In this document: piece by piece, positions 4,510 to 49,982 of the stretch
How positions within the stretch are numbered: position 1 is the first letter of the stretch
How the letters are laid out: each line of letters begins with the position of its first letter
DNA from: a virus
Length of the DNA: 64,000 bases
Reading direction: 5' to 3' (one strand)
Virus record (IMG/VR): IMGVR_UViG_3300008117_008517
Location: 1-64,000 of that record
The notes under the pieces: generated by a model
What the model was told of the DNA's origin: nothing
The model's input: only the letters and a program-made list of their open reading frames with translations
Database searches by the model: none
Position numbers and translations under genes: made by a program

Positions 4510-4532
4510 GTAATATATATTAATTTTTTTCC

Positions 4533-4540
4533 TATATTTG
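4533..4540 (+). promoter_or_regulatory. Bacteroidetes-type -7 box for structured RNA
   Basis: TATATTTG, matching TAnnTTTG. Predicted transcription start about 4545, immediately before the first conserved-looking stem of the RNA element. Confidence 0.55.
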
Positions 4541-4845
4541 TAGTGTCAAATGGGAGCTGCCAAAAGCCGACTAGCCAAATGACCTTGAAATCTTTTTTAA
4601 AATCTCAGATAAAACACTGTCCCTAACAGTCTGATTATAAACTGGGATTACCTTTTAGGGAAGGTTGGGCCAATTCAAAATATCTGTGGCACCGCAGAAA
4701 CTACAAAGTGACTGACACATAAACTGGTAGTTATAAACAAAGATGTGTTAAAAAGAGAGGTAAAGTAGTGTGAAACTTTTAATCTCAAAATCCGACGAAA
4801 GACTTACTCACAATAAGTTTCATCGTCGGATTATTTTTTTCACTG
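4541..4845 (+). ncRNA. Candidate structured non-coding RNA, about 300 nt
   Basis: The 405-base gap between genes holds no credible reading frame but dense RNA structure. Hairpin A: TCAG 4605-4608 with CTGA 4631-4634 and ACTGT 4616-4620 with ACAGT 4626-4630, loop CCCTA. Hairpin B: ACCTT 4650-4654 with AAGGT 4661-4665, loop TTAGGG. The two loops are complementary (CCCTA with TAGGG), a possible kissing interaction. Hairpin C: TCTGTG 4683-4688 with CGCAGA 4693-4698. Pseudoknot: AACTAC 4699-4704 with GTAGTT 4727-4732, interlaced with TGACACAT 4713-4720 and ATGTGTTA 4743-4750. It ends in a strong terminator and has a host-like promoter box at its start. I see no tmRNA, RNase P or 6S signature. Role unknown. 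Confidence 0.7.
4789..4842 (+). terminator. Strong intrinsic terminator of the structured RNA
   Basis: AATCCGACGA 4789-4798 pairs with TCGTCGGATT 4823-4832; inside it AGACTTA pairs with TAAGTTT. The stem is followed by ATTATTTTTTTC. It is one of the most stable hairpins in the window. Confidence 0.88.
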
Positions 4846-4898
4846 ATGTCAAAAATTATTAAAATTTACCAAAGTCAATAGGAATAAGGTTTTCCGAG

Positions 4899-4914
4899 TG
4901 TTATATATAACACT
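4899..4914. promoter_or_regulatory. Perfect palindrome GTGTTATATATAACAC before ATG
   Basis: A 16-base perfect inverted repeat directly abuts the ATG at 4915 and contains the TATATAA promoter-like core. It could be a dimeric repressor operator overlapping a promoter, or simply an extended promoter core. Confidence 0.45.
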
Positions 4915-25093: not shown

Positions 25094-28000
25094 GTGGCTT
25101 TAATTCTTTTCGAAGAACCGGTTCCAGTAGAGAATGGTGATGTAAACTTTAGAGTAGACTCCAATAATTGGGCAGTTCCTGGTCAATCAGTACTTGTAAG
25201 CTATCCAGATGGTAGCTACTTGGGATATTTCATCGTGACTGATGTTTATATACTTGTAGAGCCTGATGGAACTGAGTATTTATATATTACTTGTCGGAAT
25301 GTCACACTTTATTTTCCAGCAAATCCTGCTCCTTTATCTCAGATACCTCAGTTTTCAATAATTGGCCCAGGCATGCCTCCAAGTGGACCTCAAGGTGAAT
25401 CAGGACCTCAAGGTTTACAAGGTCCAACAGGTCCACAAGGTCTACAAGGTCCGACCGGTCCACAAGGTCTTCAAGGTCCGACTGGTCCACAAGGTTTACA
25501 AGGTCCAACAGGTCCACAAGGTTTGCAAGGTCCGACCGGTCCACAGGGTCTACAAGGCCCAACAGGTCCACAAGGTTTTCAAGGACCAACTGGTCCACAA
25601 GGTCCTCAGGGTCCTACCGGACCACAAGGTCCTCAAGGTTTACAAGGTCCAACAGGCCCTCAGGGTTTTCAGGGACCAAGTGGTCCACAAGGTCTTCAAG
25701 GACCAACCGGTCCAACTGGAGTTCAAGGTTTTCAAGGACCCTGTTGTGCTGGTCCAACCGGTGCGACTGGTCTTACTTTGACATCCGATTCTTGTTACAT
25801 TTTTGACTATGATGATTCGACTACTCAGTCTTATCCAGGTAACGGTAGATTTAGACTTAATAACTCAGATATGGGTTCTGCAAATCAGATGTTTGTTTCT
25901 TACCAAGACACAACATCGAATGATTTGTCTAATTATTTTGAGGCATTAAATAATTATGGCACAACTCTTAGAAGAGGATTTTTGAAAATTCAACTTTCAA
26001 CAGATCAGTCTTGGTTTCATGTATTTGAAATAACTGGTACGATTACATCTAGTGGTTCTGGTGTGACTAAATACTATTTAATACCAATTTCAAATATAGT
26101 TTCAGATAATGATTTTACTAATAATTCCAACAGCTATTTGTGTTTTACTCCTGCTGGTAATTCAACTACTGGTCCCCAAGGAGCTACTGGTCCTTCATTA
26201 GGACCTGCGGGTGCTCAAGGTCCAACTGGTCCACTAGCTAATACAGTAACTGGTCCTCAAGGACCAACAGGCCTGTCAGGAGATGCTGGACCACAAGGTC
26301 CAACTGGACCTGCTGGATCCGGTGATGGAAATACTGGACCACAAGGACCAACAGGCCTGTCAGGAGATGCTGGACCACAAGGTCCAACTGGACCTGCTGG
26401 ATCCGGTGATGGGAATACTGGACCTCAGGGTCCAACCGGTCTATCAGGAGATGTTGGTGCACAAGGTCCAACTGGACCTGCTGGATTAGGTGATGGTAAT
26501 ACTGGGTCTCAAGGACCAACTGGACCGTTAGGTATGACTGGTTCACAAGGTTCAACTGGTAGCTCTATAACTGGTCCACAAGGATCAACAGGTATAATAG
26601 GTCCCCAAGGTCATACAGGACCTCCCGGTAATCCAGGTGGTGATCAGGGACCAACGGGTTTTCAAGGTAATACAGGAGTTCAAGGTATAACTGGACCATC
26701 AGCTACAGGACCGCAGGGTAATACAGGTATTATTGGTCCTCAAGGTCACACTGGTCCTCCCGGTAATCCTGGTGGAGATCAAGGTCCAACTGGTTTTCAA
26801 GGAAACACTGGTGTTCAGGGTCTTACTGGACCTCAAGGTTTTACAGGAATCGGTACGACAGGATCTCAAGGATCTACTGGTTCTCAAGGCGCAACTGGTA
26901 GTCAAGGTTTAACAGGAACTCAAGGAGTGACTGGTACTCAAGGTTCTACCGGTATTCAAGGATTGACTGGACCACAAGGTTCTACCGGTTCTCAAGGTCA
27001 GACAGGAGCTTCTATAACTGGCCCGCAAGGAAACACAGGTGTAGGTATACAAGGCCCAACTGGACCTCCCGGTAATCCTGGTGGAGATCAAGGTCCAACA
27101 GGTTTTCAAGGTAATACAGGAGTTCAAGGTATAACGGGACCATCAATAACTGGTAATCAAGGACCTACTGGAATACCTGGTCCTCAAGGTGATACCGGTC
27201 CTGCCGGTCCTGCAGGTGGTCCTTCTGGTCCACAAGGAAACACCGGAATACAAGGTTTGACGGGATTACAAGGTCCAACTGGTTTTCAAGGATTTACTGG
27301 TTTACAGGGTCTTACTGGTCCACAAGGTTTGACTGGACTACAGGGATTAACTGGTCCACAGGGTGTAACTGGAACTCAAGGGTTTACAGGCACACAAGGA
27401 ATTACTGGATCACAGGGTCCAACTGGTATTCAGGGTATGACTGGCACAAAGGGAGAAACTGGACCTTCAATAACAGGACCACAAGGTCCAACTGGTGTAG
27501 ATGGTCTACAAGGTCCAACAGGACCACCAAATGGTTTTCAAGGACCAACCGGACTTCAAGGTATGACCGGTCCAAAAGGTGACCCGGGTGGCTTTCAAGG
27601 ACCAACAGGTCCAGAGGGTTCTACTGGTGTTCAAGGAACTACAGGTATATCTATAACTGGACCTCAGGGATTTACCGGTAATCAAGGAACAACGGGCTCT
27701 CAAGGATTAACTGGTACTCAAGGTATAACAGGTTCTCAAGGTTTCACTGGTTCGCAGGGGGTGACAGGGTCTCAAGGATTTACTGGATTTCAAGGAAATA
27801 CAGGATCTCAGGGAAATACAGGGTCTCAAGGTGTTACTGGATTTCAAGGTAATACTGGTATTCAAGGACCCACAGGTAATTCTATTACAGGACCACAGGG
27901 TGTCACTGGTATAGATGGTAATCAAGGTCCAACAGGACCTGCTGGTACACCTGGTGGACCTCAAGGATTCACTGGATTTCAAGGACCAACTGGGCCAAAA

Positions 28001-31000
28001 GGTGATCCGGGAGGTCTTCAGGGACCAACTGGAACAACAGGAGTTGATGGTCCAACTGGTACTCAAGGACCAACTGGTAATCAGGGTAATACAGGTCCAC
28101 AAGGCACAACTGGGAGTCAGGGTATTACTGGGCATCAAGGAACTACAGGAAATCAAGGTTCAACTGGTGTTCAAGGTTCTACAGGAATACAAGGACTCAC
28201 TGGACCGAAAGGTGAAACTGGAACTTCTGTAACAGGTGCTCAAGGTCCAACTGGTGTTGGTCTTCAGGGTCCAACTGGACCACCGAATGGTTTTCAAGGA
28301 CCAACTGGCTTCCAAGGTGCAACTGGTCCTAAGGGTGATCCTGGTGGATTTCAAGGTCCGACTGGACCAACCGGTCCTTCCGCAAATTACTATGTTCAAG
28401 AACCACCAGCACCACCGTCACCGGTACAAGGTGATAGATGGTATGACTTATCAACGGGTCAAGAATTTGTTTATATAAACGATAATACCAGCTCTCAGTG
28501 GGTTACTCCAATTAATTTTTACAATGGTTCATCTACCGGTGGTAATACAGGTCCGCAAGGAACCACTGGTCCTCAAGGAATCACTGGAAGTCAAGGTCCA
28601 ACTGGTCCTAGCAGTATCACAATAACTGACCCTGCTGGTAGAATATTCTTTAGTAGTGGTAGTTCACTTACAAGCTCAAGTTGTTTAAGTATAAACGTAT
28701 CAGATCTAAATTTAATTATTGGTTCAACTGGTAGTTCTATTCTGGGCTACCTTGGTAACCCAGCCTCTGTCTATTGTAGTCGTAGAAATTCTATAATAAG
28801 CAGTTTTGATTCTGAGATTTCTGCTATTAGCCGTGGTAACACTATAATTTCTGGTGAGTGTAATAGACAATGTGTTTCATGTAATTCAACAATAATTTCA
28901 AGTAAATGTAGTTGCATGGACCCCGCTGGTGGTATTTTTGGCAATGTACATTTTCACAGTTCGATAATAGCAGGATTCAATAGTTGTATAATAAGTTCTG
29001 GAGCAGTTACTGTCAAATATTCGTCAATAGTGGGTGATTGTCAGTCTAGAATCCAATCTGGATGCACATCTTTGATAGGTGGGGGTTTTAAAAATGTAAT
29101 TTGTACTAGTTTACAATCATCAATTCTTGGTGGATCGTGTAATGTTATTACAAATTCAACTTGTAATAGTTCTATTATAGGCAGTTACAGATCATGTATC
29201 AGTTGCTCAAAACAAACTGCAATAATTGCAGGTGGAACTGGTAGTTTTATCAATTGTGCAAGTTGTAATTCATCACTTATTGGCGGATATAGAAATACAT
29301 TAACGGCATCTTGTTTTAGTTCAATTATTAGTGGTCAAAGAAACTGTATTAGTAACGGTGCAAACTCTATAATAATTGGTGGTTCTGGAAGTTTTATAAG
29401 CTCTACTGCTTCTAATAGTGTTATAGTAGGTGGTAATTCACTCACTTTAACAGCCTCTAATACCGTACTTGTGCCAAATTTAAGAGTTGCTGGTAATTTA
29501 ATTCCTAACGCTGATCAGACTTATGACCTTGGTGCAACTCCATCTGGAAGATGGAGAGATCTATGGCTTAGTGGTAACACAATATATCTTGGTGATTTAA
29601 CTATCTCGGCATCTGGTTCATCAGTTGCAGTTCCAAATCTATTAGTTACCGGTGGCTCGACGTTTAGAGGTAGTCTATCTACAGGAACAGCTTCAGTATT
29701 GGGTAATATATCTGCAACTGGTTCATTATCAGTAACGAATACAATCACAGCTGGTACTATTTCCGCAACTAACCAGGTAGATTCCAGTTCGTTCAATGCT
29801 GCTACTTATAAAATAGCTACTTTTAAAGCACTTGATGGACCAGCTTTTTCAGCTTATGGAAGTGTAGCTACGACGCTAAATAACGGTGTAGTAACTAAAA
29901 TAACTTTGGATACTGAGGAATTTGATACTGACAATGTATTCAACACTTCAACATATCGATTCACACCAAATTTAGCTGGATATTATCTGTTCCATGGTCA
30001 CATAAGTGTTGTCACATACGCATCAAACACTAGCTCACAAATTATGTCATTATATAAAAATGGATATGAATATAAAAGAGGAGTTAGAGTTCCTTGCAAT
30101 ACTGCTGGTGTTGGGACCATGATTAGTGCAATGATTTTCATGGATGGAATCACTGACTATATCGAAATGTATGGTCTACAGAGTTCTGGTGGTAATGTTA
30201 CAACTGAGACTGGTCAACAATTTGGTTCATATTTACAAGGTAATTTTGTGAAACCACCAATTTACTTATACGTTTCGGTTCAATATCTAGTCATCGGAGG
30301 GGGTGGCGGAGGCGGATGTAACTGGGGTGGAGGTGGAGGTGGAGGTGCCTTTGTTGAAGGAACTTCTGGATTTGCTAGAGGATTTGTTTATGATATTATT
30401 GTTGGAACTGGTGGGGATGGTGCAACCACTGCGGGCTCCGGTGGTAATGGTGGTTCATCAACCATAACAGGTGTTAAATATACTCCTAGTACTTTTACTA
30501 TTGATGCTTCTGGCGGTGGCGGTGGTGGATATAACATAAGTGGATCAAGTGCAGCTGCAGGAAATTCAAATGGCAACGGGTCTGGTGGTGGTGCTGGGTA
30601 TCCAGGTTCTGGTGGAACAGTTGCTGGTGGGTCTGGTGTCAATAACGTAACTATAGAATTTCAAACTGTTAATTCATTCAACAGTGGGGGACAATCACAA
30701 GGTTTAAATTCTAGAGCATCTGGTGGTGGAGGTGGTGCTGGTGCTGTTGGACAAGAAGGTCAAACATCAACCACTGGTGGTAATGGTGGTGCTGGTAAAA
30801 CAAGTTCAATAACTGGTGCTTCTGTATACTATTCAGCTGGAGGTGGAGGCGGTGGTAATGCCGGAACAGTACAATCTTCAGGTGGGACTGGTAATACAGG
30901 TGGCAAAGGTGGAAATACAAATGGAGGCGCTGGTACAAGTGGCGCGGGTGGATATGGTATGGGCGGTGGTGGAGGTGCTACTAATGGTGGCCAAGGTGGT

Positions 31001-31135
31001 AATGGTAGTAAAGGTGTTGTTATTTTACGTGTTTTAACTTCTCAAAATAGTTCGGGAACTGGCACCTATACAACAACAACTGATGGTCTATACACAATTT
31101 TCACATTTACTGGCGATGGCCAGTTTATACCCTGA
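25094..31135 (+). CDS. Giant collagen-like tail fibre/adhesin with C1q-like and Gly-rich ends
   Basis: 2013 residues, GTG start. Order: N-terminal beta domain (1-95), collagen-like Gly-x-y repeats (about 98-212), a beta domain (about 225-355), a very long collagen-like stretch (about 360-1100, mainly GPQGPTG-type triplets), a short spacer and a second short collagen run. A Cys-rich region of Ile-Ile-Gly/Ser repeats follows (about 1185-1460), then [18 protein letters not shown], a C1q/TNF-like jelly roll (about 1570-1720) and a poly-Gly domain (about 1735-2010). Collagen stretches should trimerise into a long shaft; C1q-like and Gly-rich domains are typical receptor-binding tips in phage fibres. 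Five Lys residues stand in the Gly-x-Lys-Gly position. No signal peptide, so it is virion-assembled. Confidence 0.93.
25382..25756 (+). repeat. Collagen-coding repeat block 1
   Basis: Tandem 9- and 18-base units (GGT CCA CAA GGT CTA CAA type) encoding Gly-x-y. Third codon positions vary strongly between units, so the repeat is clearer in protein than in DNA. Confidence 0.9.
26170..28385 (+). repeat. Collagen-coding repeat block 2
   Basis: About 2.2 kb of Gly-x-y coding repeats, the main shaft of the first fibre, with breaks at [15 protein letters not shown] and PPNGFQG inserts that repeat at the protein level. Confidence 0.9.
26253..26420 (+). repeat. 84-bp tandem duplication
   Basis: Two nearly identical 84-base copies (26253-26336 and 26337-26420; for example AGGCCTGTCAGGAGATGCTG occurs twice, 84 bases apart), then a more diverged third copy. 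This is a recent in-frame duplication of 28 residues. Confidence 0.85.
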
Positions 31136-31162
31136 TAAAATAGATAAATAAATAAATAGAAT

Positions 31163-34100
31163 ATGCCAGTAAATTTTCCATCATTTCCCTCAACAAACGA
31201 GACCTACACTTTTAGTTCAACAGTGTGGACATATAATGGATATGCATGGGTTGTATCTTCATCGGCTCAATCAACTGGTGCTACAGGTCCTCAAGGTCCT
31301 ACTGGACAGGCAGGATCAGGTTCCGGGGTAACAGGTCCTCAAGGTCCGACTGGTATAGATGGTGTTCAGGGTCCGACTGGACCAGCAGGTGGTGGATCTG
31401 GCACAACCGGTCCTCAAGGCCCAACTGGCCTACAGGGTATAACAGGTCCTCAAGGTTCAACAGGACCGGGTATTTCGGTTGATAGACCATTCACTGAAGT
31501 ATTCTTTAGTGATGGTAATTTAGGCATAACGAGTTCAGAAAACTTCACATTCAATCCAACTTACTCGAACTTAGTTTCCGGACTTTCTAATAGTATAATC
31601 GCTGGAGTCTATGGACCTACTGATAGTATTTCATCAGCTATAATTGGTGGTAAAGAAAATACTATATCTAATAGATCAAGTTATTCTACAATTTTAGGCG
31701 GATCTTGTAATTTAATTACTGGTACATCCGCTTCATCAGCCGCTTCATCAGCTATAATTGGTGGTAAAGAAAATACTATATCTGATAGATCAAGTTATTC
31801 TACAATTTTAGCTGGATCTTGCAATTTAATTACTGGTACATCCGCGTACGGATTTGTAAGTGGTGTTTGTAATAAAATTATAAACAGTTCAAAATCTCAT
31901 ATAATAGGAGGTGAGAAGAATTCTATTTGTAATTACGACGGTCTCTACCAAAATGCTAATCTATTGAATCTTGATAGCTCTTTAATAATTGGAGGATGTC
32001 AGAATACAATTATGAACAACAGTTATGTTTCAAATTTCTCATCAATTATAGGTGGATTTACAAACTCGATATGTGATTCTCAACGTTCCTCTATCTTATT
32101 TTCATCTTGTTCAGTAAATCGTATATCCTGTTGTGGTATTATATTAAATTCATATAAATCTATACAATGTTGGGACTGTAACAGTTTAATATTAGGTGGT
32201 TCATATAATTGGATTATTGGAAATTATCTGGGACAACCAGAATACAACGTAATAGTTGGTGGTAAACATAATTGCATGTTCCAATTTAACTCATATACTG
32301 GTTACACCGGAGTCTCTTCCTATAGTGCTATACTATCATCTACTGGTTCAAGTATCAATTGGTCTATTTCAGGAGTGATTGTAGGTGGATCCGGAAATAT
32401 TCTTGCAGGTCGACCGTATGACATCAAAAATCTAACTTCTACAATAATAGGAGGTAGATGTAACATTATTTTGATAGATGCTTTTGCTGCTGGTACATCG
32501 TCAGACAATTCAATTATGGGTGGATTCTGTAACAGAATTGTAAATTCTGATAGAAGTGCAATAATTGGTGGCAGTCAGCTCACCCTCACTCAATCGGATA
32601 CAGTACTTGTACCTCAATTAAAATTAAACGAGCCTACAAATTCTGTAATATTATCTGCAACAAATGGGACTTTAAATATTGGAATAGGAACTTACTCTTA
32701 CAGATTACCAAAGACTGATGGGTTACCAGGTCAGTTATTATCAACTGATGGATTGGCATCTTCTGGTGGTACCCTTTCTTGGGTTACTGCTTCTGGTGTT
32801 GGTAGTCAGGGAGTGACTGGACCACAGGGTTTGACAGGTGTTCAAGGTCTAACAGGTCCTCAAGGTTTTACAGGAGATCAAGGTACAACTGGTTCTCAAG
32901 GATTTACAGGTAATCAAGGTCTGACTGGATCACAAGGAACCACTGGTAATCAAGGATTTACAGGTAATCAGGGTGTGACCGGACTACAAGGTTCGACTGG
33001 TGTTCAAGGATTTACCGGACCACAAGGATTTACAGGTAATCAGGGTGTGACCGGACTACAAGGTTCGACTGGTGTTCAAGGATTTACCGGACCACAAGGG
33101 TTTACAGGTGATCAAGGATCAACAGGACCACAAGGTTTTACTGGTTTACAAGGATTTACTGGTCCACAAGGTCAACCCGGTCAAGCAGCTTCATACTATA
33201 ATTACAAAGCTAAAACGGCAAGTCAGAGTGGTGATCCAGGATCAACATATATCCTCTGGAATAATGCTACACAAATAAGTTCAACACAAATAAACATAAG
33301 TCACATCAATAGAGATTCAGTGGATATAGATTTCTTACTTGCTACAATTATCCCAGGCAACACAATAATAATACAAGCTGATGATAATTCAAATAACTAT
33401 CAAAAATGGGTAGTTAGTGCCACGATTTCAATAATCCCGAACTCTTATGTGCAAATACCAGTTACATTCGTAGAATATGGTGGTACTGGTAATTCATTTA
33501 ATAATGATGATAATATTATAGTTATAGTTCAAACAGCTGGTTCTACTGGTCCACAAGGAAGTGTTGGTGTAACTGGACCACAAGGTCAAACTGGTATACA
33601 AGGATTTACTGGACCACAAGGTGCTACTGGTTCAGGAATTTCAATCACTAGTCCAACTGGTGAAATATTCTTCAGCAGTGGTAGTTCACTAACTAGTTCT
33701 AGTTGTTTTAATATAGATTCATCAAGACTGAATTTGATTATAGGTTCTACCGGTTCTAGTTTTGACAACACACCAAAAAATAATCGTAGAAACTCAATAA
33801 TTAGTAGTGGGAATTCAAAAATATGCTATGGTAGTTGTGAGAGCGGAATCGCTTTTGGTCAGAATAATTTAATATACTCATCTATAAATTCATCAATAAT
33901 ATCAAGTCAAAATAGTTGTATTTGTAATCCCTTGTCTAAATTTGTTTATAATAGTTCAATAATTGGAGGAGTAGATCATAAAATTATAGGAGCATCTTTT
34001 TTATCTTCTTATTCTTTGATTTTGGGTGGTACATCCTCAACAATTTGTTCTGCATATAGAACAGTAATAATTGGTGGTGGTGGCAACATAGCTTATGGTA

Positions 34101-35530
34101 CAAATAGATCAGTAATTTCCGGGGGTATTCAAAACACGCAATGTAATGCTTATAACTCGAACATTCTTGGTGGTGGTAGTAATTATATTGGTGTAAAATC
34201 CGGTTCCGTTGTATCAAGTTTGATAGCTGGTGGTTATAAAAATAGAATTTGTGGTGATGATTCCGATAGTGATATAATAATTGGTGGTAGAAGTAACTGT
34301 ATTTGTAAATCTACTAATTCTGTAATAATCGGAGCAAGTGGTAGTGCTATTTGCCAGGGAGCTGTAAATTCAGTGATAATTGGTGGTAATGGTCTTACAC
34401 TTACAGCTTCAAATACTGTTTTAGTACCTAACTTACAAATAGATGGTGTTTTAAATGGTAAGTTTATTAACCAGCAAACAAACACTGGTCCATATTATTT
34501 AGCCGAATTTAGAGGTAATGGTGGTGCGAGATTTAAAATAGGCGTGAGTGATGACTTAAATTTTGGAATAGCGAATGATGTTCTAAATAGCACCGATAAT
34601 GGTTATGCTGATTACAACCTAAATGCTAAAGAAATTACCTTTGGAATAAACGACGATCCAGTAGTTGGACCGGGTCTACCAAACGCATTTGTGATTCACA
34701 ATCAAGGAGCATGGGTTGAAATTACATACGGATTAACTGTTAGTCAAGTTTTTAGTGTTAATGGTACAATCGGAAGTAATTTAATTCCTGATATAGATGC
34801 CTACTATGATTTAGGAGCAAGTCCTTCATCTAGATGGAAAGACTTATGGTTAAGTGGAAATACTATCTATTTGGGAGATGCTAAATTAAGCTCAACTGGT
34901 TCATCAGTTCAAATAGAAACTCTTTATATAGGCACAACTAATCCAGTTCAGATCTCTGCAACTGGTAACTCACTGGTTTTTGGATCAACACAGTCTTATG
35001 CACTTCCAAACTACGATGGTGGTCCTGGTCAAGTTCTTTACACAGACGGACTAGGCCAACTTGGTTGGACTAATTCTGGAGGCGGTGCAGGTACACAAGG
35101 CCCAACTGGACCAGCTGGTAATGCCGGTTCACAGGGTCCAACCGGTCCGCAGGGTCCTACTGGACCAGCGCCAACAACTACCAATTCTTTTGGTATTACA
35201 ATCGATGGCCAAGGTGGTACAATAACAACTGGAGTTAAGGGTTATGTAAGTATACCTTATGATTGTACTATCACAGGATGGACTATAATAGCAAACGCAA
35301 CAGGATCAGTTGTAATAGACGTATGGAAGGCGGCAAGTTCAATACCGACTGTTTCGAATAGTATCGCTGGATCTGAGAAACCGACACTATCATCAGCTCA
35401 ATATAATCAAGATCTTACACTCTCAACTTGGACTGTTTCTGTGGATGCTAATGATGTAATTGCGTTCAACGTCGATTCAGCAACTACAGTTTCAAGTGTG
35501 TCATTAACTATTGCAGTCAGTAAGACATAA
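31163..35530 (+). CDS. Second collagen-like fibre protein
   Basis: 1455 residues, ATG 27 bases after the first fibre gene, so co-transcribed. Order: short N-terminal domain (1-40), collagen run (about 40-105), Ile-Ile-Gly/Cys repeats (about 125-480), LPKTDGLPGQLLSTDG linker typical of tail fibres, collagen run (about 550-675), beta domain (about 680-790), short collagen run and second Ile-Ile-Gly/Cys repeat block (about 830-1090). Then a beta domain, the same YDLGASPSSRWKDLWLSG element as the first fibre, another collagen run and a C-terminal beta domain (about 1335-1455). Modules are clearly shared with the 2013-residue protein. Likely a second fibre or the distal half of the same fibre. Confidence 0.9.
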   Translation: MPVNFPSFPSTNETYTFSSTVWTYNGYAWVVSSSAQSTGATGPQGPTGQAGSGSGVTGPQGPTGIDGVQGPTGPAGGGSGTTGPQGPTGLQGITGPQGSTGPGISVDRPFTEVFFSDGNLGITSSENFTFNPTYSNLVSGLSNSIIAGVYGPTDSISSAIIGGKENTISNRSSYSTILGGSCNLITGTSASSAASSAIIGGKENTISDRSSYSTILAGSCNLITGTSAYGFVSGVCNKIINSSKSHIIGGEKNSICNYDGLYQNANLLNLDSSLIIGGCQNTIMNNSYVSNFSSIIGGFTNSICDSQRSSILFSSCSVNRISCCGIILNSYKSIQCWDCNSLILGGSYNWIIGNYLGQPEYNVIVGGKHNCMFQFNSYTGYTGVSSYSAILSSTGSSINWSISGVIVGGSGNILAGRPYDIKNLTSTIIGGRCNIILIDAFAAGTSSDNSIMGGFCNRIVNSDRSAIIGGSQLTLTQSDTVLVPQLKLNEPTNSVILSATNGTLNIGIGTYSYRLPKTDGLPGQLLSTDGLASSGGTLSWVTASGVGSQGVTGPQGLTGVQGLTGPQGFTGDQGTTGSQGFTGNQGLTGSQGTTGNQGFTGNQGVTGLQGSTGVQGFTGPQGFTGNQGVTGLQGSTGVQGFTGPQGFTGDQGSTGPQGFTGLQGFTGPQGQPGQAASYYNYKAKTASQSGDPGSTYILWNNATQISSTQINISHINRDSVDIDFLLATIIPGNTIIIQADDNSNNYQKWVVSATISIIPNSYVQIPVTFVEYGGTGNSFNNDDNIIVIVQTAGSTGPQGSVGVTGPQGQTGIQGFTGPQGATGSGISITSPTGEIFFSSGSSLTSSSCFNIDSSRLNLIIGSTGSSFDNTPKNNRRNSIISSGNSKICYGSCESGIAFGQNNLIYSSINSSIISSQNSCICNPLSKFVYNSSIIGGVDHKIIGASFLSSYSLILGGTSSTICSAYRTVIIGGGGNIAYGTNRSVISGGIQNTQCNAYNSNILGGGSNYIGVKSGSVVSSLIAGGYKNRICGDDSDSDIIIGGRSNCICKSTNSVIIGASGSAICQGAVNSVIIGGNGLTLTASNTVLVPNLQIDGVLNGKFINQQTNTGPYYLAEFRGNGGARFKIGVSDDLNFGIANDVLNSTDNGYADYNLNAKEITFGINDDPVVGPGLPNAFVIHNQGAWVEITYGLTVSQVFSVNGTIGSNLIPDIDAYYDLGASPSSRWKDLWLSGNTIYLGDAKLSSTGSSVQIETLYIGTTNPVQISATGNSLVFGSTQSYALPNYDGGPGQVLYTDGLGQLGWTNSGGGAGTQGPTGPAGNAGSQGPTGPQGPTGPAPTTTNSFGITIDGQGGTITTGVKGYVSIPYDCTITGWTIIANATGSVVIDVWKAASSIPTVSNSIAGSEKPTLSSAQYNQDLTLSTWTVSVDANDVIAFNVDSATTVSSVSLTIAVSKT
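31631..31842 (+). repeat. 114-bp tandem duplication in fibre 2
   Basis: The segment starting TCATCAGCTATAATTGGTGG at 31631 recurs at 31745 with only a few changes over about 98 bases. One copy equals two Ile-Ile-Gly repeats, so the beta-repeat array grows by duplication in frame. Confidence 0.88.
32952..33130 (+). repeat. 72-bp tandem duplication in collagen run
   Basis: AAGGATTTACAGGTAATCAG occurs at 32952 and 33024 with identical flanks (period 72 bases, 24 residues); a third, partial copy starts near 33096 with GGTTTACAGGTGATCAAGG. Confidence 0.85.
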
Positions 35531-49821: not shown

Positions 49822-49880
49822 TGAATAGGTAATTTTTAATTATATATTAATTTAGTGTCTGACCTAATTAATATATAAAA

Positions 49881-49888
49881 TATATTTT
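49881..49888 (+). promoter_or_regulatory. Possible promoter box TATATTTT
   Basis: Near match to TAnnTTTG. Predicted transcription start falls at about 49892, precisely at the first hairpin of the small RNA candidate. Confidence 0.35.
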
Positions 49889-49890
49889 TT

Positions 49891-49966
49891 TAGACGGCTT
49901 AGGACCGTCATGTTGTTACGACACATGTTTAAATCCAGGAAACTCGCTCCTTCCTGGATTTTTCTT
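49891..49966 (+). ncRNA. Candidate small three-hairpin RNA, about 75 nt
   Basis: Three successive hairpins with no gap: GACGG 49893-49897 with CCGTC 49905-49909; CATGT 49909-49913 with ACATG 49923-49927; and a terminator AAATCCAGGAA 49931-49941 with TTCCTGGATTT 49951-49961 followed by TTCTTTTT. No reading frame of useful length. It sits between divergent transcription units and ends before the separate promoter of the next gene, so it looks like an independent small RNA rather than a leader. Confidence 0.5.
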
Positions 49967-49969
49967 TTT
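49931..49969 (+). terminator. Intrinsic terminator
   Basis: 11-bp stem AAATCCAGGAA/TTCCTGGATTT with a 9-base loop and T-rich tail; 3' end of the small RNA candidate. Confidence 0.85.
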
Positions 49970-49977
49970 AATATATA
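49966..49977 (+). promoter_or_regulatory. Phage promoter-like TTTTAATATATA
   Basis: Lies 5 bases before the ATG at 49983. Confidence 0.5.
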
Positions 49978-49982
49978 CCACT

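Follow-up and report, generated by a model that had tools for sequence, protein, structure and literature searches.

A putative standalone structured RNA gene in huge phages, with complementary loops maintained by compensatory change

The viral record that contains this DNA is 172,576 bases (172.6 kb) long and 95% coding; the window analyzed here, a stretch of 64,000 nt, is part of that record. A noncoding gap had been noticed near the start of the window in the first-pass annotation, and we verified that it spans 405 bases (4510-4914) and is the second largest gap in the record. An ORF scan of the gap detected no plus-strand ORF longer than 30 aa. A 10-codon frame at 4550-4582 (MGAAKSRLAK) was considered as a product and dropped because the homologues described below have no counterpart at that place. 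The elements that we assign to the gap are as follows:

4533-4540 (+): promoter box TATATTTG of the Bacteroidota type (TAnnTTTG), shared with promoters of window genes and with both homologues
4541-4840 (+): predicted ncRNA transcript of about 290-300 nt, based on the promoter, the lack of a real ORF, the terminator and the homologues
4545-4583 (+): variable 5' domain, a hairpin closed by GUCA/UGAC, from fold and alignment
4601-4649 (+): P3, a long hairpin with an internal loop, from fold and homologue comparison
4650-4665 (+): P4, a short hairpin with stem ACCU(U)/(A)AGGU, whose loop UUAGGG(A) (4655-4661) is complementary to the P3 loop
4667-4693 (+): P5, stem 4667-4672/4687-4693 with a bulged A, shared by the homologues
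4699-4750 (+): H-type pseudoknot, S1 4699-4704/4727-4732 and S2 4713-4720/4743-4750, from the stems and the homologues
4755-4786 (+): P7, hairpin GAGA/UCUC plus AAAGU/ACUUU with loop AGUGUGAA (GNRA-type GUGA, closed by U-A), from the homologues
4789-4840 (+): intrinsic terminator, stem AAUCCGACGA/UCGUCGGAUU plus an inner stem, then a T-run

Both ends of the predicted transcript agree with what had first been proposed. The TATATTTG box is present at 4533, where a TAnnTTTG box had been reported at the start of the RNA, and the long stem with a T-run is a terminator (4789-4832 plus the T-run) that is exceptionally stable relative to shuffles (z -6.6). Transcription would begin at 4541-4547. The same TATATTTG box lies 12-23 nt upstream of the ATG of genes 1143, 2495(-), 9281(-), 13617, 23611(-), 24988(-), and 42610(-), and a further one occurs in the window after 63856. 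Two promoter classes can be distinguished in the window: TATATTTG, the host type, mostly precedes non-structural genes, and a AATATATA or TTATATATAA type box precedes others, baseplate genes included, with the structural genes carrying mostly AATATATA-type boxes. Boxes of both classes sit very near the ATG, suggesting near-leaderless mRNAs, and they fit a Bacteroidota-type host. Gene 4915, directly downstream of the gap, has its own TTATATATAA box immediately upstream of its ATG. A palindrome, GTGTTATATATAACAC, at 4898-4913 lies directly 5' of this ATG and overlaps the box; it is a possible operator. Elsewhere in the window, the intergenic stretch 49822-49982 has a first hairpin, GACGGCTTAGGACCGTC, a second one, ATGTTGTTACGACACAT, and then a terminator, AATCCAGGAA..TTCCTGGATT, close to a AATATATA box, and is possibly a second small RNA. 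Two collagen-like repeat proteins of 2013 and 1455 aa with GPTGPQG-type repeats, probably tail fibres, are encoded at 25094-35530.

The P3 inner stem ACUG/CAGU (4616-4619/4627-4630) closes a 7-nt apical loop, UCCCUAA (4620-4626). The complementarity between this loop and that of P4 was borne out and is longer than originally described: UCCCUAA can form 7 bp with UUAGGGA (4655-4661), a kissing pair seen in 21 of 20,000 shuffles (~0.1%). Both stems of the interlaced pseudoknot were likewise located where they had been drawn. A third hairpin, previously placed at 4684-4697, finds no support in the homologues; the stem common to all members is P5, followed by a conserved CCGCAG (4692-4697). P7 was missing from the earlier list but is conserved, with the GNRA-type loop UGUGAA. 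The assertion that such an arrangement is unlikely by chance survived in part. It holds for the kissing pair, but shuffling the whole RNA gave an equally good pseudoknot in 37 of 400 cases (9%), and the RNA body without its terminator has an average folding energy (z -0.02 against shuffles). When shuffling was confined to the 61-nt region where the homologues place the pseudoknot, the count was 2 of 400. The fold-energy z-score was discarded as evidence for structure because it was due to the terminator. Taken from the window alone, the structure would be unproven, and it is the comparison with homologous sequences that settles the matter.

Direct sequence searches recovered little. With the RNA as BLAST query, phages and related records yielded only an identical copy, shared promoter stretches, and AT-rich noise; the identical copy lies in one second record and was also found by exact patterns. 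Five-motif exact pattern scans of viral contigs gave this copy plus chance or coding matches only, and the pattern scan of genome contigs gave one match, in a Paenibacillus contig. An apparent double BLAST match in a 735 kb phage was rejected, as it falls within a protein ORF. A single-sequence covariance model (R1), based on the window RNA, retrieved nothing beyond the identical copy: the remaining weak matches fit poorly, and the best of them lacked P3 and P4. We then went through the large gaps of related genomes, looking for a box near the start combined with a strong terminator, and identified a counterpart with the same layout at 76302-76590 of LR756502. Its loops, CGGCAAA and UUUGCCG, have other letters and are again complementary. 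BLAST with the LR756502 sequence identified a third member at 94127-93931 of LR745206, 81% identical to the LR756502 counterpart. The indels between these two copies are 1-4 nt long, several of them of a length not divisible by three, and this speaks against a coding role. Both counterparts, which come from complete phage genomes of 634-642 kb, have a TATATTTG box at the RNA start, and LR756502 has a strong terminator at an equal distance.

As an independent check on homology, we built a second covariance model (R2) only from LR756502 and LR745206 and ran it over the whole window record. R2 recovered window positions 4600-4753 at 27.8 bits (E 2.8e-5, a rough value because calibration was short), and the next match in the record scored 9.5 bits. 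The window match was listed by the dedicated R2 search and not by a faster whole-record search, whose more stringent initial step may drop weak ones. Among about 50 related records, the best non-member reached 20.7 bits and lacked the kissing pair; matches at or below this score in other records also lacked it and mostly overlapped ORFs. Model searches of huge phages that are more distant, and of shorter contigs from related phages, did not recover the RNA. When 3.55 Mb of fetched sequence was scanned with a descriptor that requires the box, the kissing loops, CCGCAG, and the terminator together, the window and LR756502 alone satisfied it; LR745206 is missed because of a mismatch in its P3 inner stem. 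MAFFT aligned the core of the three members with many invariant columns (GGAUWACCUUU, CCGCAG), and conserved unpaired stretches include AAAGAYGUGU and CCGCAG. The order of elements common to the members is promoter box, 5' hairpin, P3, P4, P5, pseudoknot, GNRA-type hairpin, and terminator, with the 5' domain of both homologues forming a GGUAU/AUACC-type hairpin instead of the GUCA/UGAC-closed one of the window.

Covariation was assessed on three distinct members, two of which are 81% identical to each other, few for formal statistics. Because the MAFFT alignment puts the P4 stem and the kissing pairs of the window one base out of register, pairs were counted helix by helix. In the kissing pair, complementarity is 6/6 over the compared positions in each of the three members, with two-sided changes at three of them: C-G to G-C twice and U-A to C-G once, the U-A/C-G change also separating the two close relatives. 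Among random loops of matching composition, six pairs arise in 0.2-0.3% of trials for each member. Pseudoknot stem S2 retains 7/7 pairs in all three members with two two-sided changes, while S1 is conserved in position only and is ambiguous in LR756502. The outer stem of P7 keeps 4/4 pairs with two-sided changes at two positions, and direct reading shows a U-A-closed, GNRA-type loop in each member (AGUGUGAA in the window, AAUGCGAA and AUUGUGAA in the homologues). Both the loop-loop pairs and the pseudoknot, for which the first-pass annotation had proposed an R-scape test, thus show compensatory changes among the three members, a result close to that test, and its proposal of a structured standalone RNA outside the known classes is supported by these homologues together with the lack of Rfam and ARAGORN matches. 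The features expected of a standalone structured phage ncRNA in general are all found here: an own promoter and terminator, no ORF, and a structure kept with compensatory changes. Judged from sequence comparison, the locus is very probably a genuine conserved structured RNA gene, and it appears to represent a new, previously unlisted family of standalone structured phage ncRNA with members so far in three lineages. A gap with no functional RNA, in which the promoter, terminator, and stems persist as remnants and the structure arose by chance, is scarcely credible: body fold energy equals that of shuffles and the pseudoknot alone is not rare over a whole-RNA scan, but homology was recovered by a model blind to the window (R2) and compensatory changes occur in three separate elements.

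The baseplate wedge protein of the window phage is 63-65% identical to those of LR745206 and LR756502 and at most 41% identical to those of other huge or Bacteroidota phages. All genomes above 634 kb described in PMC7162821 are Mahaphages, which are predicted to replicate in Bacteroidetes. The best explanation as a whole, which we consider on balance probable, is that huge Bacteroidota phages of Mahaphage type, in at least three lineages, carry a gene for a standalone structured ncRNA of about 290-300 nt that works in trans as a compact scaffold.

How might such an RNA act? The promoter type suggests early or host-driven transcription, and the TATATTTG promoter would be read early by host RNA polymerase. 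P3 directly adjoins P4 in every member and retains its internal loop, an arrangement that suits docking within one molecule: P3 would bend at the internal loop and its apical loop would dock on the adjacent P4 loop. The docked loops and the pseudoknot would form a compact scaffold working in trans, which would most likely bind, then hold or sequester, a host or phage protein (or ribonucleoprotein). The neighbouring genes differ in all three phages and gene 4915 has its own box, which makes a cis role unlikely; action in trans is accordingly very likely, though slightly less certain than the existence of the gene. Protein binding as the main mode of action is proposed more tentatively, as a serious possibility that falls short of an even chance. 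A packaging or ejection RNA, as first suggested, is disfavoured by the host-type promoter, which in the window is used before non-structural genes, whereas structural genes mostly carry AATATATA-type boxes.

An antisense-type regulatory sRNA, in which exposed stretches pair with host or phage mRNAs and the folds give stability, is an unlikely but reasonable alternative. In promoter, size, and terminator the gene looks like a typical sRNA gene and some unpaired stretches are conserved (AAAGAYGUGU, CCGCAG), but most conserved features are tertiary contacts (kissing pair, pseudoknot, GNRA-type loop). Because conservation falls more on tertiary contacts than on long single strands, we favour a protein scaffold or decoy over antisense pairing with modest confidence.

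The kissing loops could also pair between molecules, producing dimers or rings like GOLLD/ROOL cages or phi29 pRNA in an RNA-only assembly. Full loop complementarity of 6-7 bp, kept by compensatory change in three phages, speaks for this reading, and kissing loops between chains hold together GOLLD and ROOL, both in phages (PMC12286853). The adjacency of P3 and P4 in all members and the flexible P3 internal loop favour one-molecule docking instead, the RNA is far smaller than GOLLD and ROOL and matched neither Rfam model, and a late promoter would be expected for a packaging ring. We regard assembly between molecules as doubtful. Equally speculative is a broader idea, that a new early huge-phage RNA family forms an intermolecular kissing-loop RNA-only complex or acts as a mimic that captures part of the host translation machinery. 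A weak lead toward the latter is the conserved GGAUWACCU stretch, which resembles GGAUCACCU, presumably located near the 16S rRNA 3' end.

A 5' leader (attenuator or riboswitch) for gene 4915 is very improbable. The RNA is on the same strand as the gene, the terminator lies between the structured part and the gene, and a short competing pairing (4771-4778/4815-4822) is available, but this alternative pairing must break a 10-bp terminator stem. Furthermore, the TTATATATAA box directly before the ATG makes it unlikely that the RNA is the leader of this gene, and the downstream genes differ among the three members, so that a test for a conserved gene association failed.

Returning to the trans-acting scaffold, we found no structured ncRNA family described for this huge-phage clade in the literature searched. 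Being conserved, having a kissing loop and a pseudoknot that covary, and standing under a host-type promoter, the RNA offers a direct handle on RNA action of these phages upon their hosts, and its small size brings it within reach of cryo-EM, chemical probing, and pull-down. Moreover, phage RNAs that escape BLAST can come to light when gaps are examined for a promoter, a terminator, and complementary loops.

The earlier view that known RNA classes do not fit agrees with our Rfam searches: the window has no match at the gathering threshold, no family matches any of the three members, and GOLLD, ROOL, and phage pRNA are not among the hits up to E 10 for any of them. ARAGORN found neither a tRNA nor a tmRNA in the window. 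A divergent tmRNA is encoded separately in this phage, outside the window at 171384-171760 (+) of the record; it matches RF00023 at 28 bits (E 1.4e-9, below the gathering score), was missed by ARAGORN, and has a TATATTTG box just upstream. The RNA described here shares with this tmRNA the phage, the promoter-box type, and a structure with a pseudoknot, but has neither a tRNA-like acceptor end nor an Rfam tmRNA match. tmRNA matches were also observed in related huge phages, and tmRNA, tRNAs, and translation proteins have already been reported for huge phages (PMC7162821). A T-box-like string, UGGCACCGC, was considered and dropped because it had no Rfam support. With respect to TnpB/Cas12-type guide RNAs, no PF07282 protein is encoded in the record, itself possibly a fragment. 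A different ncRNA-like gap was seen in a related phage contig at 45262-45527 (-), with a TATATTTG box, a length of about 205 nt, 35% G+C, 5' and 3' ends able to pair (AACAACAG/CTGTTGTT), and no Rfam match below E 0.02.

Type III toxin-antitoxin RNAs of the ToxI type consist of tandem-repeat pseudoknot units before a toxin gene. Like them, the RNA combines a pseudoknot, a terminator, and then a small same-strand gene; unlike them, it has no tandem repeats in a repeat check, and the downstream protein has a signal-peptide-like start and is not conserved beside the homologues. The phi29 pRNA is a phage packaging RNA with two mutually complementary loops. Such loops occur in both RNAs, but here they are accompanied by a pseudoknot, a GNRA-type hairpin, a terminator, and a host-type rather than structural-gene-type promoter, and there is no Rfam match. 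GOLLD and ROOL are large phage ncRNAs that form RNA-only cages through kissing loops between chains (PMC12286853). They differ from the present RNA in size (~300 nt here, compared with 659 nt for ROOL env-120 and more than 800 nt for many GOLLD RNAs; PMC12286853), the window has no tRNA gene, and the RNA has no Rfam match to either; what they have in common is a standalone structured phage ncRNA with kissing loops and pseudoknots. By analogy, although not a member of either family by model match, this RNA may work like GOLLD and ROOL as a compact standalone phage RNA.
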